Origin: Desulfatitalea sp. BRH_c12
GTDB taxonomy: Bacteria; Desulfobacterota; Desulfobacteria; Desulfobacterales; Desulfosarcinaceae
DNA length: 64,000 bases
Assembly: GCA_000961655.1 (NCBI GenBank)
Contig: LADR01000082.1
Coordinates: 1-64,000, forward strand
Direction of reading: 5' to 3'
The notes beneath the pieces were generated by a model. The model did no database searches. It was not told the origin of the DNA and worked only from the letters and a program-made list of their open reading frames with translations. The translations under genes and the position numbers were made by a program. Shown piece by piece: positions 4,970 to 62,120 of the stretch (positions are counted from its first letter, which is position 1; each line of letters opens with the position of its first letter).

Positions 4970-5125
4970 GCGTGGTGGGCAATGCCCACCCTACAACTTG
5001 CCTGCCTGGCTACAATAGAAACAGATCGGCTATAACCAGTAGGGTGGGCACCGCCCACCATTTATTGTCCTGGTGCGGATGGCTTTGAATGTCACGGTGG
5101 TGGGCAATGCCCACCCTACAAATCC
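4970..5125 (+). repeat. REP cluster: three GGTGGGC/GCCCACC palindromes
   Basis: Palindromes lie at ~4,974-4,996 (GTGGTGGGCAATGCCCACCCTAC), ~5,040-5,060 (GTAGGGTGGGCACCGCCCACC) and ~5,097-5,119. The second and third face each other across a GGTGCGGATGGCTTTGAATG spacer, forming a BIME. The tetranucleotide GTAG at the stem foot is the signature of RAYT-mobilised REPs. Confidence 0.8.
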
Positions 5126-5157: not shown

Positions 5158-6609
5158 TTAAGGTGCTGCCCTGCCAATGTGGTGCATGGCCCCTTTTTTG
5201 ACCTCATACATGGCCAGATCCGCACTCCTGATCAGATCCTGTGCTGTTTGGCCGTCCTCCGGGAAAAGCGCCTGGCCCATGCTGGCGAAAACAAAATCAA
5301 CGATGTGGTCGTCTAAACGGAAGGGCCTGCTTAAGTGGGCGACCATGCGAGCGGCTATTTGGGCTCGAAAAATATCATCCGGATTTTTCAGCAAAACCGT
5401 AAATTCGTCCCCTCCAATCCGAGCCACCAAATCGGATGCGCGCACCGCCGCCTTCAGTCGTCCCGCAACTGCCACGAGCAGTTTGTCGCCCATCTCATGT
5501 CCATAGGTGTCATTGACATGCTTGAACTTGTCTAAATCGAAAAAGAAAAGCGCAAGCGGGTACCCTTGCCGCCCAGCCTTTTCGATTTCTACTTCCAAGC
5601 TTTCGATGAACGCTTTGCGGTTGAGTAAGCCTGTCAGCGAATCGTGATTGGCCATATAAAGCAGTTTCTGATCTGCCTTTTTCCTCTCGGTAATATCCCG
5701 GGTGACGCCGAGAATTCCAATGATGGTGCGATGGGAATCCGCAATGAAGCGCGTGTGGACTTCAGACCATACGGTTGTCCCATCCTTGCGGCGCAATTCT
5801 ACCTGAGCGGCAAGGCTCTTGGGTTGGTTGCCATCGCCTTGTATGATCCGATTGAACTCTTCCGAAATGATTTTTTTAGCCATTGCAAGCGATACCTCGG
5901 TTAAAATGTCATCAATGCGCATGAGCATCACTTCTTGTCGAGAATATCCCAGCAGGTGAGTGACCGAAGGACTGACAAAGGTAAAACGCCCAAGCAGATC
6001 GCTGGTCCAGATCATATCGGTTGCGTTGTCGGTGATGAGACGGTAAGTTTCCTCACTCTCACGCAAGGCTTTCTCGATGCGTATGCGGTTTTCGATCTCA
6101 CGCGTTAGTTCGTGATTGCTGATTTCGACTTTGATGGCCAGCGCATTGGCCTGGATCACCGCTTCTTCCAGTCCCCGGTTGGACGCCTGCAGTTCGTCTT
6201 GCAAATCGATTAATTTCGCTTCAGAAAGCTTTCGATCGGCGATCTCCTGCGAAAGCATGTGGGTTTGATACTGCGATTCATGCAGTGCTTCCCGGAAATA
6301 GGCGATTGTTTTGTTTGTTTCCCTCTCGCGTTTGAGGAAGAAGACAACGAGCGCGAAAGGCATAAACACTAAAACAGTGAGCAGTTCATCTATCTTGAGG
6401 CCTTCATGCGAATTCGAAAATAAAACCAGGCTGTTCATTATATCGAAAATGCCGGCACATAGATAAACAGCCAAACTGAACAGGAAAAGGCCACCGACAT
6501 CCCGTGCTGTCTTGGATTTGAGAATGAAAAACGGAAATTTCTTTTTACGCAGGTCTTTGTCATTATCCATTGCATCTGCCTCTGATTCACACGCTACATC
6601 ATCTGACAA
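5158..6609 (-). CDS. Membrane PAS-GGDEF diguanylate cyclase
   Basis: A 483-residue protein with two transmembrane helices (~residues 38-60 and 72-92), a coiled-coil linker, a PAS sensor domain (~190-310, with a following 'GVTRDITERKKA' PAC motif) and a C-terminal GGDEF domain (~325-480). The active-site motif is intact (ARIGGDEF). An inhibitory I-site (RASD) lies five residues upstream of GGDEF, so product inhibition by c-di-GMP is expected. It would make c-di-GMP from two GTP at the inner membrane. The first 16 nt overlap the end of the hybrid kinase gene at 6,594, so the two are probably translationally coupled and may act in one pathway. No EAL domain is present. Confidence 0.92.
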   Translation of the reverse strand: MSDDVACESEADAMDNDKDLRKKKFPFFILKSKTARDVGGLFLFSLAVYLCAGIFDIMNSLVLFSNSHEGLKIDELLTVLVFMPFALVVFFLKRERETNKTIAYFREALHESQYQTHMLSQEIADRKLSEAKLIDLQDELQASNRGLEEAVIQANALAIKVEISNHELTREIENRIRIEKALRESEETYRLITDNATDMIWTSDLLGRFTFVSPSVTHLLGYSRQEVMLMRIDDILTEVSLAMAKKIISEEFNRIIQGDGNQPKSLAAQVELRRKDGTTVWSEVHTRFIADSHRTIIGILGVTRDITERKKADQKLLYMANHDSLTGLLNRKAFIESLEVEIEKAGRQGYPLALFFFDLDKFKHVNDTYGHEMGDKLLVAVAGRLKAAVRASDLVARIGGDEFTVLLKNPDDIFRAQIAARMVAHLSRPFRLDDHIVDFVFASMGQALFPEDGQTAQDLIRSADLAMYEVKKGAMHHIGRAAP

Positions 6610-11595: not shown

Positions 11596-11656
11596 GATCA
11601 CCCTCGACCCAATATGCCTTTTACTTTTTTGGCCAGTTCATCTATCGAAAATGGTT
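11596..11656 (-). pseudogene. Receiver-domain 3'-end fragment (duplicate of 13,562-13,622)
   Basis: The 61 bp differ at about five positions from the end of the hybrid kinase gene at 13,564. On the minus strand they encode PFSIDELAKKVKGILGR and a stop, matching that kinase's last ~18 residues. They are in direct orientation with the intact copy and bracket the whole RAYT/REP array. The fragment has no promoter or start and is a remnant. Confidence 0.85.
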
Positions 11657-11817
11657 AACGGTTGAATAGCACGGTGGTGGGCAATGCCCACCCTACACTC
11701 TATCGAAGCGCTATCCAGGTAGGGTGGGCACCGCCCACCATTTGACTTCTAAAATGGCCATACATGATCTAGGTGCGGATGACTTTGAATGACACGGTAA
11801 CGGGCAACGCCCGCCCT

Positions 11818-11924
11818 ACCCATAAATGTTGATATAAAAAACGTATTGAATTATCGCCGCCCCAATGCCACAAGCTTGCGCTGGATCAGTGCCAGAAACC
11901 GATGATGTTGTTTACTGCGAATAG
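11818..11924 (+). pseudogene. Internally deleted RAYT copy A
   Basis: The left ~55 bp (CCCATAAATGTTGAT..GAATTATCGCCGC.CCAATGCC) match the 5' end of the transposase gene at 12,374-12,425. The right ~55 bp (AACCGATGATG.TGTTTA..GAATAG) match its 3' end at ~12,900-12,944. About 460 bp of the middle are missing, so it is a MITE-like non-autonomous derivative. Confidence 0.8.
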
Positions 11925-12082
11925 TTTGCGCTAAAGCTGGTGGGCAATGCCCACCCTACGCTCTATCGAAGCGCTATCCAGGTAGGGTGGGCCCCGCCCA
12001 CCATTTGACTTCCCAAATGGCCATACATGATCTATGGTGCGGATGGCTTTGAATGACACGGTAACGGGCAACGCCCGCCCTA

Positions 12083-12188
12083 CCCATAAATGTTGATATA
12101 AAAAACGTATTGAATTATCGCCGCCCCAATGCCACAAGCTTGCGCTGGATCAGTGCCAGAAACCGATGATGTTGTTTACTGCGAATAG
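12083..12188 (+). pseudogene. Internally deleted RAYT copy B
   Basis: Same structure and same deletion joint as copy A, 265 bp further on. It was therefore probably produced by tandem duplication of the whole unit rather than by a second independent deletion. Confidence 0.8.
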
Positions 12189-12395
12189 TTTGCGCTAAAG
12201 CTGGTGGGCAATGCCCACCCTACAACTTGGCCGCCCCAAAAACCCCGATCGAAGCGCTATCCAGGTAGGGTGGGCACCGCCCACCATTTGACTTCCCAAA
12301 TGGCCATACATGATCTATGGTGCGGATGGCTTTGAATGACACGGTAACGGGCAACGCCCGCCCTATCCACTACCCATAAATGTTGATGAAAAAAC

Positions 12396-12944
12396 ATGTC
12401 GAATTATCGCCGCGCCAATGCCAAAGGTGCGACTTACTTTTTTACCGTGGTAACTTACCGGCGCCAGAAATTCCTTACACTGCCGGAAAACCGGCATGCC
12501 TTGCGAAACGCCATTGCAGCAGCAAAGCAACGCCATGCCTTTGTCATCGAGGCTTGGGTACTGCTGCCCGATCACATGCATTGCATCTGGACGCTGCCGG
12601 AAAATGATTTCGATTTTTCCAAACGATGGGGTTTGGTCAAAGCCAAATTTACCAAACAAAACAAAGCGCGGTTGTACAATAAGAAATGGATGAATCAATC
12701 GAAACACAACCATCGCGAATCAACAATCTGGCAGCGCCGTTTCTGGGAACATCAGATTCGTGATGACTACGATTTTGAGAAACATATGGATTATATCCAC
12801 TTTAATCCGGTCAAGCATGGCTATGTTGATCGCGTCTGTGATTGGCCGTATTCAACGTTTCATCGCTATGTCCGCTCCGGTGTCTACCCAATCGCTTGGG
12901 CGGGAACAGGGTCGAAAACCGATGATGCTGTTTATGGGGAATAG
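12396..12944 (+). CDS. REP-associated tyrosine transposase (RAYT, Y1_Tnp family)
   Basis: A 182-residue single-domain HUH transposase of the IS200-like Y1 family. FFTVVTYRRQKFL starts the fold. The HUH metal-binding pair is in LLPDHMHCIWTLP (H60, H62). Later come [34 protein letters not shown], with Tyr residues including Y133 as candidates for the nucleophile, and the [13 protein letters not shown]-terminal block typical of RAYTs. These enzymes nick and rejoin single-stranded REP sequences at a GTAG foot. The flanking palindromes carry exactly that tetranucleotide, so this protein is the likely mobiliser of the REPs across the window. It lacks terminal inverted repeats of its own and has only a weak ribosome binding site. 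Confidence 0.93.
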   Translation: MSNYRRANAKGATYFFTVVTYRRQKFLTLPENRHALRNAIAAAKQRHAFVIEAWVLLPDHMHCIWTLPENDFDFSKRWGLVKAKFTKQNKARLYNKKWMNQSKHNHRESTIWQRRFWEHQIRDDYDFEKHMDYIHFNPVKHGYVDRVCDWPYSTFHRYVRSGVYPIAWAGTGSKTDDAVYGE

Positions 12945-12949
12945 TTTTC

Positions 12950-13540
12950 GGTAACGCTGGTGGGCAGTGCCCACCCTACTACTTTCGAAGCGCTATCCAG
13001 GTAGGGTGGGCACCGCCCACCATTTACATTCCCACATGGCCTTCGAATCGCTTGGGCAGGAACAGGGTCGGAAACCGATGATGCTGTTTATGGGGAATAG
13101 TAATGCTGGTGGGCAGTGCCCACCCTACAACTTTAATCCGGTCAAGCATGGCTATGTTGATTGCGTCTGTGATTGGCCGTATTCAACGTTTCATCGCTAT
13201 GTCCGCTCCGGTGTCTACCCAATCGCTTGGGCAGGAACAGGGTCGGAAACCGATGATGCTGTTTATGGGGAATAGTTTGCGGTAATGCTGGTGGGCAGTG
13301 CCCACCCTACTACTTTCGAAGCGCTATCCAGGTAGGGTGGGCACCGCCCACCATTTACATTCCCACATGGCCTTCGAATCGCTTGGGCAGGAACAGGGTC
13401 GGAAACCGATGATGCTGTTTATGGGGAATAGTTTTCGGTAATGCTGGTGTGCAGTGCCCACCCTACAACTATCGAAGCGCTATCCAGGTAGGGTGGGCAC
13501 CGCCCACCATTTACATTCCCACATGGCCACACACTGTAGT
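12950..13540 (+). repeat. REP array with three 5'-truncated RAYT copies
   Basis: REP palindromes alternate as GGTGGGCAGTGCCCACCCTAC and GTAGGGTGGGCACCGCCCACC, followed by CATTTACATTCCCACATGG. Between them lie 3'-end fragments of the transposase gene at 13,045-13,100, 13,131-13,275 and 13,375-13,431. Units repeat at about 310 bp. The open frame through the middle fragment begins and ends in repeats and is not an independent gene. Confidence 0.85.
13131..13275 (+). pseudogene. RAYT 3'-end fragment (largest)
   Basis: Encodes [24 protein letters not shown] through to the RAYT stop codon, with only a few differences from the intact gene, and lacks the whole HUH region. The two shorter fragments (13,045-13,100; 13,375-13,431) keep only the last ~18 codons. 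All share the GGAACAGGGTCGGAAACCG variant, which differs from the intact gene, so they arose from each other. Confidence 0.85.
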
Positions 13541-13563
13541 ACAAAAATGTGAGTCGCTATCGA

Positions 13564-15933
13564 TCACGCGCGACCCAATATGCCTTTTACTTTTTTGCCC
13601 AATTCATCTATCGAGAATGGTTTTTGGATAAAATACATGCCTTTTCCTAAAACACCGTGCTGAACGACAACGTTGGCCGTGTAGCCGGACATGAACAATA
13701 TCTTCAGGCCTGGATGCATCTTTCTGATGAGATTCGACAACGCACGCCCATCCATTTCAGGCATGATCACATCCGTGACCAGAAGATCGATGTCGCCGGG
13801 GAGATCTTTGGCGATATCCAAGGCGTGGCTTGGCGTACCTGCGGCGATGACAGTATAACCCAATTCCTGCAACATGGTTTGAGCCAACCTCAATATCATG
13901 GGTTCGTCCTCAACTAAAAGCACCGTTTCACGGTTTCCTAATGAGGTCTTTACTGTGCTTGTGGTCTTTTTCTGCACCGATTTGGCTGTATGGCGTGGCA
14001 GGAAAACCCTGATCGTCGAGCCTTCCCCGATCTTGCTGTCTACCTTGATAAACCCTTTGTTTTGTCTGACAATGCCATAAACAGTGGCCAGACCCAATCC
14101 GGTGCCTTGCCCTATTTCTTTCGTGGTAAAAAACGGTTCAAAAAGATTGCTGAGCTCTTCTTCGTTCATGCCGCAGCCGTCATCACAGACAGACAGAAAG
14201 ACAAAATCGCCGGCAGAAAAATCCTCGTGAAAAGTATCACTTGTCTCAGCGAAAGTGATATTACCCGTTGCGATGCTGATTTTACCCGACCCGGAAACCG
14301 CATCGCGCGCATTGACGCACAGATTGGCCAAAATTTGATTCACTTGGGTCAAATCGAGTAAAACAGGCCACAATTTATTCCCCGGATGCCATCGCAGATC
14401 GATGTCTTCGCCAATCAATCGCCGCAGCATTTTGAGCATGTTCTCAATGGCTTCATTCAAGTCGAGCACTTTGGGCGCAATACTCTGTTTGCGGGCAAAG
14501 GCGAGCAGTTGTTGGGTGATCTCGGTTGACCGCTTGGCAGCTTTAAGAATTTCCGAAAGATCAGAATGAAGGGGATCATGGATCGGCACCTTTGCCATTG
14601 CCAATTCGGAATACCCAGTAATGATCGTCAACATATTGTTGTAGTCGTGCGCCACACCGCCAGCCAGACGCCCCACGGTTTCCAATTTTTGAGCCTGGAG
14701 CAGCTGCTTTTGAAGCTTGGCCTGCTCCTTTTCGTATTTTTTCCGTTCTGTTTCGTCATACAGGAGCGATAGCATCACCTGACGGCCGCCCAGCGAAATA
14801 GATTCAGCGGACCAGAGGGCAAAAATGCTTTGGCCGGATTTGTTTATGTACTTGACCGGTTCATCTTTGAAATGTCCGTGATCCAGAAGCTTTTGGACAA
14901 TCCGGTCACGGTCTTTGGGCTCTGCCCAAATGTTTAATTCATTAGAGGTTCGGCCGATCTGTTCTTCTCTGGTATAGCCAAGCATCCGCTCCCATTGTTC
15001 GTTGACATCGATAAAGCGGCCGGTTGCAATCTCAGAGATGACAAAGGGCGCCGGACTCGTCATGAACGCTTTGTGAAAACGTTCCTCGCTTTCCCGCAAG
15101 GCCTCTTCCATTTTCTTGCGCTTTGTGATGTCAATAATAGATCCGATATAGCATTTCTGCCCGCCAAAATCCATATAAACGGCCGATATTAAGACGGTTC
15201 GAAGATCGCCCGTTTTTGATCTGACGGCAACCTCTGCATTGTCAACGCGCCCCTTCGCAGCCGTGAGCCTCGCCAGGCGGTTTCTGTCCCCCCTGTTCGC
15301 CCAGACCCCTATCTCCTCGGCAGTCTTTCCGATGACCTCCTGTCGGGTGTACCCCGACAACTGCACAAAAGCATTGTTGACATCGACATACCGCCCTTCA
15401 AGAACAGTACTGATGGTCAGTGGAATGGCGTTCGCACGAAAGATACGCCGGAAACTATCCTCTATTTCTTTAAGCGCCTGCACGGCCCGATGGCCCTCGG
15501 TTATGTCATCAAACGCCATGACAACGATGTCGCAGCCCGCCATCACGATCTTGCTGGTTTTGTATCGAACCCAGAGCTCCGGCATGCCAGGTTCTCGCGT
15601 CACCAAGGTTTCCCCCTCGATTAAAGCGGCATCTGGTGTTCCCTCCAAGATACTTTGAAGTCCTAAAAAAAATGGACAAGTCGGACAATTTCGGGTGTAA
15701 CCGCACCCCTGCGGATCAGAATGGCGATTTGCACAAGCGATAAAATCACCCAATCGCAAACCTTGCATCCCATCTGAAGATACGCCAAAAAGGCCCTCCG
15801 CAAGCGTATTGGCAAAAATGATCCCGGCATCACTGTCGAGCACGACAATACCAACAGGTGAAGCATTTATGATCAGTTCAAGCGTCAAATCGGTTTCTGA
15901 CAAACGTTGCCGGCCTATCTTATGCTTGATCAT
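13564..15933 (-). CDS. Hybrid sensor histidine kinase (3 PAS-HisKA-HATPase-REC)
   Basis: A 789-residue soluble kinase. PAS 1 (~15-150) contains a Cys-rich insert (C-x-N-R-H...GCGYTRNCPTCPF). PAS 2 (~165-275) and PAS 3 (~285-405) end in 'IDITKRKKMEEALRESEE' and 'DETERKKYE'. HisKA: GRLAGGVAHDYNNML. HATPase: ILANLCVNARDAV, DDGCGMNEEE, GTGLGLATVYG. The receiver (~665-785) has VEDEP, phosphoacceptor Asp in LLVTDVIMPEMDG, and the conserved Lys in FIQKPFSIDEL. GGGGAG precedes ATG 15933. The last 61 bp are duplicated at 11,596 on the far side of the RAYT array. No genes lie close by in the same direction. Confidence 0.93.
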   Translation of the reverse strand: MIKHKIGRQRLSETDLTLELIINASPVGIVVLDSDAGIIFANTLAEGLFGVSSDGMQGLRLGDFIACANRHSDPQGCGYTRNCPTCPFFLGLQSILEGTPDAALIEGETLVTREPGMPELWVRYKTSKIVMAGCDIVVMAFDDITEGHRAVQALKEIEDSFRRIFRANAIPLTISTVLEGRYVDVNNAFVQLSGYTRQEVIGKTAEEIGVWANRGDRNRLARLTAAKGRVDNAEVAVRSKTGDLRTVLISAVYMDFGGQKCYIGSIIDITKRKKMEEALRESEERFHKAFMTSPAPFVISEIATGRFIDVNEQWERMLGYTREEQIGRTSNELNIWAEPKDRDRIVQKLLDHGHFKDEPVKYINKSGQSIFALWSAESISLGGRQVMLSLLYDETERKKYEKEQAKLQKQLLQAQKLETVGRLAGGVAHDYNNMLTIITGYSELAMAKVPIHDPLHSDLSEILKAAKRSTEITQQLLAFARKQSIAPKVLDLNEAIENMLKMLRRLIGEDIDLRWHPGNKLWPVLLDLTQVNQILANLCVNARDAVSGSGKISIATGNITFAETSDTFHEDFSAGDFVFLSVCDDGCGMNEEELSNLFEPFFTTKEIGQGTGLGLATVYGIVRQNKGFIKVDSKIGEGSTIRVFLPRHTAKSVQKKTTSTVKTSLGNRETVLLVEDEPMILRLAQTMLQELGYTVIAAGTPSHALDIAKDLPGDIDLLVTDVIMPEMDGRALSNLIRKMHPGLKILFMSGYTANVVVQHGVLGKGMYFIQKPFSIDELGKKVKGILGRA

Positions 15934-61753: not shown

Positions 61754-62120
61754 AATGGATGTGGACGAGAACGAAGCGTCAGTGGCCTGGCTGAAGGTCA
61801 ATCAGAGCGATCTGCTTTTGCTGGACATGATCATGGACCCGGGCATCGACGGATACGAGACCTACGGCGCATTCTTGAGTACCGTCCGGGGCAAAAAGCG
61901 CTGATCCCCAGCCAGGTAGGGTGGGCATCGCCCACCATTTGATTTGCAAATGGCCATAGGTGATCTGTGGTGCGGATGACTTTAAATGACACGATGGCAG
62001 GCAACGCCCGCTCCTATCCGGGCGATCGACATAAGACAATGGTGGGCGGTGCCCACCCTACCTGGCTGGCTGCTGACCTTGGCCAAGGCGGTCAGAACGG
62101 CACTGTCAGAGGCGGCATAA
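61754..62120 (+). pseudogene. Duplicated receiver-domain fragment, interrupted by REPs
   Basis: 61,754-61,910 matches the receiver of the kinase at 58,019 (NQSDLLLLDMIMDPGIDGYETY is readable). It breaks off just after AAAGCGCTGAT, and the matching 3' end resumes at 62,071 (CTGCTGACCTTGGCCAAGGC...GCGGCATAAG). About 90 bp of the domain are replaced by a REP pair. It is a remnant in direct orientation with the intact copy (59,871-60,157), bracketing the HTH/NTase module. Confidence 0.85.
61914..62063 (+). repeat. BIME inserted in the receiver-domain remnant
   Basis: GTAGGGTGGGCATCGCCCACC (from ~61,916), the CATTTG..CAAATGGCCATAGG hairpin and GATCTGTGGTGCGGATG spacer, a GGCAACGCCCGC arm, and at ~62,040 the converging GGTGGGCGGTGCCCACCCTACC. 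The architecture is that of the RAYT-array BIMEs at 11,665-12,373. Confidence 0.85.

Follow-up and report, generated by a model that had tools for sequence, protein, structure and literature searches.

The origin of REP palindromes, and of the REPINs that contain them, is debated. In the passages of Bertels and Rainey (2011, PMC3116915) that define it, a REPIN comprises two inverted REPs acting as a mobile unit with a linked REP-associated tyrosine transposase (RAYT), and passages of PMC3116915 and PMC8049555 describe RAYTs as single-copy, domesticated genes that are apparently not self-mobile. The window analyzed here, a 64,000-nucleotide stretch of the genome of Desulfatitalea sp. BRH_c12, contains one RAYT gene amid partial copies of itself. 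The locus raises the question of whether a RAYT gene can be pared down by deletion to a short element that disperses while it remains flanked by REPs. An earlier note on this DNA had proposed this course and had described the family as caught forming. Here, we describe a computational analysis of the window, of the 6.0-Mb genome to which it belongs (contigs with C numbers), and of other genomes (G numbers). We present evidence that deletion derivatives of a RAYT are dispersed in this genome, and that the parentage of the repeats can be read in their interiors in two genomes.

The RAYT element and its local array

The intact RAYT gene announced by the earlier note is borne out as an open reading frame of 182 amino acids at 12396-12944 (+). 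It scores 197.6 bits against the NCBIfam model NF047646 (REP_Tyr_transpos; cut-off 80) and 29.4 against PF01797 (cut-off 23), and the TnpArep structure PDB 4er8 matches it with an E value of 5.5e-48. No variation is seen at H60, H62, and Y133 in an alignment of 10; we take the two histidines to be those of the HUH motif and Y133 to be the catalytic tyrosine. Together with a leader, the gene is enclosed by two REPs whose hairpins have a perfect 7-bp stem and a 3-nt loop (-8.0 and -7.8 kcal/mol). This 715-bp element is the single full-length match in its own genome among the 60 matches listed, from which the other Y1_Tnp gene of the genome is absent. By eye, the leader contains a degenerate inverted REP at approximately 12343-12366 (sites with four mismatches in the C copies), and element positions 1-101 alone thus resemble a REPIN. 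The features of the window are:

5039-5119 (+): 81-bp unit between REPs, 71% identical in alignment to element 1-101
11596-11656 (no strand): left copy of a host-DNA direct repeat flanking the array, 92% identical to 13562-13622
11676-11696 (-): REP without a partner, left edge of the array
11719-11959 (+): derivative type C, copy 1, 241 bp, element 1-159 joined to 630-715 (from BLAST)
11982-12223 (+): derivative type C, copy 2, 242 bp, tandem duplicate of copy 1
12224-12264 (+): spacer before the full element, holding the core TCGAAGCGCTATCCAG
12265-12979 (+): full-length RAYT element, 715 bp, with left REP, leader, RAYT gene, and right REP (from REP coordinates)
12265-12285 (+): left REP, with GTAG foot, 7-bp palindrome, and 3-nt loop
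12959-12979 (-): right REP, inverted
13001-13128 (+): derivative type D, copy 1, 128 bp, element 1-41 joined to 626-715 with 4 extra bases (from alignment)
13130-13460 (+): second copy of a 331-bp-spaced tandem duplication (first copy from 12799), with RAYT 3' end, right REP, spacer, and D
13332-13466 (+): derivative type D, copy 2, 135 bp, inside the second copy of that duplication
13488-13508 (+): unpaired REP at the right edge of the array, with a further 25 bp or so of left-end sequence after it
13562-13622 (no strand): right copy of the flanking direct repeat, 3' end of a histidine-kinase gene at 13564-15933 (-)
61916-62061 (+): REP-bounded 146-bp unit, element 1-104 only (leader type)

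Partial copies are indeed present beside the gene, with ungapped identities among array copies of 97-99% over 152-300 bp, far beyond chance. The five that the earlier note had counted as separate derivatives, however, reduce to two local deletion joints (C and D) and two tandem duplications (264- and 331-bp spacing). Both C and D units are collinear with the full unit and lack its middle. The two copies said to keep both ends are real and form the interiors of units 11719-11959 and 11982-12223, but they represent one deletion rather than two: the units are 99% identical over 188 bp at a spacing of 264 bp, which points to a single deletion followed by tandem duplication. The segments 13045-13100 and 13375-13431, which had been read as 3' ends only, belong instead to internally deleted units (13001-13128 and 13332-13466) that keep 41 bp of the left end as well as the right end from about position 626. 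GTAG-footed REPs occur throughout the array, as had been claimed for all copies, with 13131-13275 as the exception. This segment does lack its own left REP foot, but it lies in the second copy of a tandem duplication (12799-13098 versus 13130-13429; ungapped, 331-bp spacing, 98% identical, or 97% by another comparison) that also carries the second D unit. Downstream of this ungapped match the two D units differ in length by 7 bp.

The core TCGAAGCGCTATCCAG is found in all six spacers (11697-11718, 11960-11981, 12224-12264, 12980-13000, 13311-13331, and 13467-13487), indicating that the array grew in place. By itself, it would be an ordinary product of tandem duplication and deletion. The direct repeat that flanks the array was also detected, in a comparison of flanks, as 78 bp at 88%. 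A duplicate of the HDOD/kinase segment 9496-11566 at C78:1490-3561 (91%) was considered as an empty site for the locus and rejected, as C78 has no similarity beyond the kinase gene; in C78, this segment of about 2 kb adjoins a copy of window 5541-5674 (C78:1362-1495). Matches of ten congeners to the window locus are at 64-82% and are apparently mostly kinase paralogues; no empty site was found among them, and no relative was sufficiently close for such a comparison.

Dispersed derivatives in the genome

When the array was used as a DNA query, 125 matches were obtained in the 6.0-Mb genome. Units were then compared in a sample drawn from the window together with 10 search loci and a further 60 stretches that were fetched; most of these loci had been picked by RAYT similarity. 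The sample holds 105 REP-bounded inverted (F..R) units: 1 of full length, 80 with a joint termed B, 8 of type A, and 16 others, two of which are artefacts of the site finder (window rows of 101 and 102 bp, from the degenerate REP inside type C; the true type C units were taken from BLAST of array units). Types A and B are the two dominant derivative families genome-wide. Type B, which as a query gave 93 matches in the genome, retains 24-30 bp from the left end and 158 bp from the right (joint at approximately 24-30|558 in element coordinates, with right segments beginning at 556-561). Its 80 units are located on 32 contigs at 47 places, as defined by 2-kb clustering; 74 are distinct when 20-nt flanks are included and 66 by sequence alone, and the 78 units with a full left flank form 51 left-flank clusters. 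Type A consists of about 243 bp of the left end, from position 1, followed by the right REP, and no RAYT source was traced for the approximately 20 bp that precede this REP.

Further shortening is evident in both families, as secondary deletions nested in A (C18:182083 and C28:55429) and as two B units reduced further (C2:5226 and C32:12453). A joint designated D' is dispersed at C30:149377, C24:105832, and C24:104531. The first two of these sites were candidates for the joint of window type D, and were rejected when alignment gave a different joint, GGCC|GCCGCTTGG; no dispersal is therefore claimed for D. Neither of the window joints C and D was seen among the other units of the 105-unit sample. 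Copies of the leader only are found at C22:7901, C22:12526, and window position 61916, and the window itself contains two leader-only units. The sizes run from that of the full element downward (715, 282, 241, 175, 144, 128, 117, and 107 bp), and the two REPs are the sole sequence common to all types. At many sites type B stands in tandem, with a locus-specific spacer repeated along with it. Contigs break inside B arrays, with identical units on two contigs (C5/C25, C14/C51, C39/C43, C48/C73, and C34/C58), and these breaks, together with the repeated units, make copy numbers based on the assembly uncertain. Another palindrome, about GACCGGCGGTC within GGGCGACCGGCGGTCGCCC, recurs in spacers and flanks (L107, L096, and L081) and perhaps represents a second REP-like family. 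A search of Rfam returned 14 matches, all far below gathering scores and taken as chance.

The ends were analyzed in units of 160-195 bp, nearly all of type B and including one A-derived unit of 189 bp (C28:55429). Left ends read AGCCAG|GTAG, with 75-90% conservation per base over 52 distinct flanks and background from the seventh base; right ends read CTAC|ATTCGG more weakly (49-67%, 51 distinct flanks) before conservation drops. Sequence conservation stops sharply 6 nt outside the REP feet, and transposition yields just such ends, sharply defined at many unrelated sites. Eighty units with one joint and sharp ends indicate that a pared RAYT did become a dispersed REP-flanked element, as the earlier note had supposed. 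The absence of any shared joint, which that note had named as counting against its idea, is not what was found: the C units share a joint and the D units share another, locally and by tandem duplication, and the B joint is common to 80 units genome-wide.

Direct repeats of 20-205 bp (E < 0.01) flank 17 of 70 stretches, two of which overlap, as compared to 12 of 210 mismatched pairs. Among these 17 loci are the window array, C32:12453 (151 bp), C13:136163 (67 bp), and C56:47878 (22 bp). Classical IS200/IS605 transposition is not known to duplicate its target, and the repeats count to that extent against such transposition here; either insertion or later tandem duplication may have made them. 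Joined flanks of 90 sites, compared with 267 kb of sequence from the same genome, revealed no clean empty site; four alignments crossed a joint.

Because most loci had been chosen by RAYT similarity, sampling bias was checked starting from the REPs. The exact pattern GTAGGGTGGGCN3GCCCACC occurs 299 times in 6.0 Mb, and a reversed-pattern control 0 times. We took the first 100 of these REPs in contig order, from a pattern search blind to RAYT; they are not independent, many being unit partners or array neighbors. Over a distance of 160 bp, 94 of 99 inner sides contain RAYT-related sequence, as compared to 19 of 98 outer sides; if only the intact RAYT serves as reference, the counts are 91 and 13. 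The outer matches would fit neighboring units of arrays. For 88 of the 100 REPs, RAYT coding sequence itself is present on the inner side at no more than 260 bp, before another REP core intervenes; the remaining 12 include contig ends, leader-only copies, heavily deleted copies, and some that are unassignable. The REPs of this sample are nearly all ends of RAYT derivatives.

Parentage and proposed mobilization of the derivatives

Copies of type B are on average 88% alike (25 of the 75 compared) and 87% like the intact RAYT over aligned bases, and by BLAST over a longer range most B units are about 74-84% identical to it. The A-type copies (n = 9) are 93% alike and 89% like RAYT. In the window, type C is 83% identical to RAYT in its right part and 95-96% in its left part, and the D copies are 95% identical. 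These identities, which for families A and B amount to approximately 74-89% with the present gene according to the measure used, make both families look older than the D copies of the window (95%). To call the family caught forming is thus too strong for this spot, given the apparent age of A and B and the restriction of joints C and D to the window among the units compared. The consensus of the 75 B copies retains the RAYT frame and stop codon; its codon changes (5 synonymous, 6 non-synonymous) show a weak synonymous excess, and those of type A (2 synonymous, 5 non-synonymous) show none. At the right end, B, C, and D' have bases in common that differ from the present RAYT (for example, GGATCAGTG versus GGAACAGGG). 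Their agreement against the present gene suggests descent from a parent that was probably a close allele of this gene or a form that preceded it.

A second case was found in another family of the order. A search of 291 genomes of the order, with that of the window among them, gave a match at E <= 1e-8 in 71. Many end fragments were seen only in the window's genome (at least 11 scored matches) and in G199 (at least 10); in G201, G044, G238, and others, partial matches number one to three. The RAYT of G199 is 59% identical and is associated with a different GTAG REP (GTAGGATGCGCTT..AAGCGCATC). In G199, the joint 247|623 is common to six copies, of which two lie 0.9 kb from each other on one contig; two copies share the joint 229|625, and others keep the 3' end; the main matches are mostly 91-97% identical, with outliers at 76% and 89%. 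The presence of RAYT derivatives with shared joints in another family, with another REP, indicates that the same process arose independently. Other genomes present a different picture. Window element DNA matched 7 of 59 relatives, in stretches of RAYT genes or short REP pieces, and no derivative family was found among the 59 with this query. In the congener G007, whose RAYT is 57% identical, the RAYT region matches only itself and four REP-like stretches of 23-26 bp. In G046, REPIN-like repeats of about 175 bp lie on both sides of the RAYT and give 60 matches, all outside the RAYT gene except for the query's own place; this pattern is the ordinary state. A REP pair with the REP core of the window is present at G025:C38:27812-27885, and a RAYT protein search of G025 gave no match.

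We consider it likely that the REPINs of this genome are MITEs of a RAYT and, as we infer, that they were mobilized in trans. Short non-autonomous elements would have arisen repeatedly from the RAYT element, or from a form that preceded it, through internal deletions that spared both REPs, and several such elements would then have multiplied and inserted at many sites. The RAYT would act in trans on DNA between two inverted REPs; by extension from the published TnpA-REP, it would recognize each REP as a single-stranded hairpin and cut near the GTAG foot. TnpA-REP recognizes GTAG plus a hairpin in single-stranded DNA and cuts nearby, according to the relevant passages of PMC8266576, and a segment between inverted REPs could therefore be processed in trans. 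The size of the deletion would hardly matter, since the REPs alone are common to the derivative types. At a given site, units and flank would multiply together by recombination or slippage, and the window array would have been made likewise. In the data, this reading draws on collinear derivation, shared joints, sharp ends, dispersal, tandem growth, and the independent second case.

Three other accounts were weighed against mobilization by the RAYT. Local tandem duplication and deletion could have built an ordinary array of repeats, prone to recombination, around a single RAYT without giving rise to any mobile derivative; this would accord with the 98-99% identical duplications at 264- and 331-bp spacing, the spacer core common to all units, and joints C and D not being seen among other units. 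The A and B copies, which have sharp ends and distinct flanks and are spread over many contigs, have already refuted this account as a complete one and leave it improbable in that role; it stands for the window array itself. Alternatively, REPINs might have come first and gained RAYT ends by recombination or gene conversion with a neighboring RAYT. Leader positions 1-101 are REPIN-like, so that the leader-only copies could be ordinary REPINs, and dispersed REPIN-like repeats flank the RAYT of G046 without RAYT coding sequence. Such an order of events is nevertheless hardly credible: the derivatives are collinear with the whole element and keep both outer REPs, the coding frame is preserved in the B consensus up to and including the stop codon, and the pattern recurs in G199.

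Finally, the derivatives might be moved by another enzyme, such as a lost form of the RAYT or the product of the second Y1-transposase gene of this genome, found with Pfam at C24:118442. The right-end bases in which B, C, and D' depart from the present RAYT favor such an enzyme, but the REP at the ends of the derivatives also bounds the present RAYT, and a DNA search of the genome with the region of the second Y1 gene found no dispersed matches; apart from the region itself, it returned short local inverted repeats and a single 804-bp copy (84%) at a distance of about 1.5 kb. There is also no REP of this class in the 4-kb stretch (L133) that holds this gene, which, as a Y1 transposase gene recognized by Pfam and DNA comparison rather than an established RAYT, is a weak control. 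We regard another enzyme as unlikely. A separate repeat was noted in C24, where a 331-bp stretch starting within the second Y1 gene is repeated about 1.3 kb on at 99% (L001 1594-1924 and 2913-3243).

Beyond this genome, mobilization by the RAYT could extend to a more general scheme, which we put forward tentatively and hold to be somewhat doubtful. REP populations may be renewed from RAYT elements by successive internal deletions, the RAYT still serving as an IS-like master; each deletion that spares the REPs could found a REPIN family, and ordinary REPINs elsewhere would be old families whose RAYT interior has eroded. If so, the present genome and G199, which belong to different families and have unrelated REPs, represent the stage at which the RAYT interior can still be read. 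Deletion joints can be counted and, in principle, dated, and the size series of 715-107 bp provides natural substrates for asking what a RAYT needs to move DNA.

Comparison with known mobile elements

Classical MITEs are short, retain the ends of the autonomous element from which they derive, and are more numerous than that element. The derivatives described here likewise keep parental ends and outnumber their parent; unlike in classical MITEs, the parent is a RAYT. With MITEs they share parental ends and subterminal sequence around an internal deletion, if autonomy of the parent is assumed, and precise ends at many unrelated sites; with REPINs, an inverted REP pair as the repeated unit and a GTAG-footed hairpin. 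The gene itself has the RAYT traits of a single full-length copy and flanking REPs that are abundant in the genome.

A parallel in archaea is provided by the PATEs of Haloquadratum, which, in the passages of PMC3119063 that describe them, are transposase-free and in some cases derived from IS605-type transposons by core deletion; one contains remnants of C-terminal coding sequence, and some have apparently been mobilized. The same passages set PATEs apart by their IS605-type parents, by core deletions ascribed to near-terminal direct repeats, and by their lack of terminal inverted repeats. In the derivatives of the present genome the REPs form terminal inverted repeats and the parent is a RAYT. 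MITEs, PATEs derived from IS605-type transposons, and the proposed descent of REPINs from an IS200-like element are already known, the latter two from passages of PMC3119063 and PMC3116915. We found no report of REPINs with RAYT interiors in the open-licence literature, a scope that leaves most subscription papers and all preprints outside.

As in the RAYT/REPtron accounts (relevant passages of PMC2817692, PMC3733652, and PMC8266576), GTAG-footed REPs bound the RAYT gene and REPs are dispersed; in those passages the dispersed part is the REPs, whereas here it also includes deletion derivatives of the gene. There is also a likeness to REPINs as portrayed in parts of PMC3116915, which share with these units the inverted REP pair, a linked RAYT, and tandem clusters that include flanking sequence, and for which descent from REPs flanking an IS200-like ancestor is given there as one possibility. 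They differ, on the same description, in that the interior of the present units is recognizable RAYT sequence, mostly coding, with shared deletion joints. The paring of a RAYT into dozens of short elements that look mobile suggests an origin for repeats of this kind.
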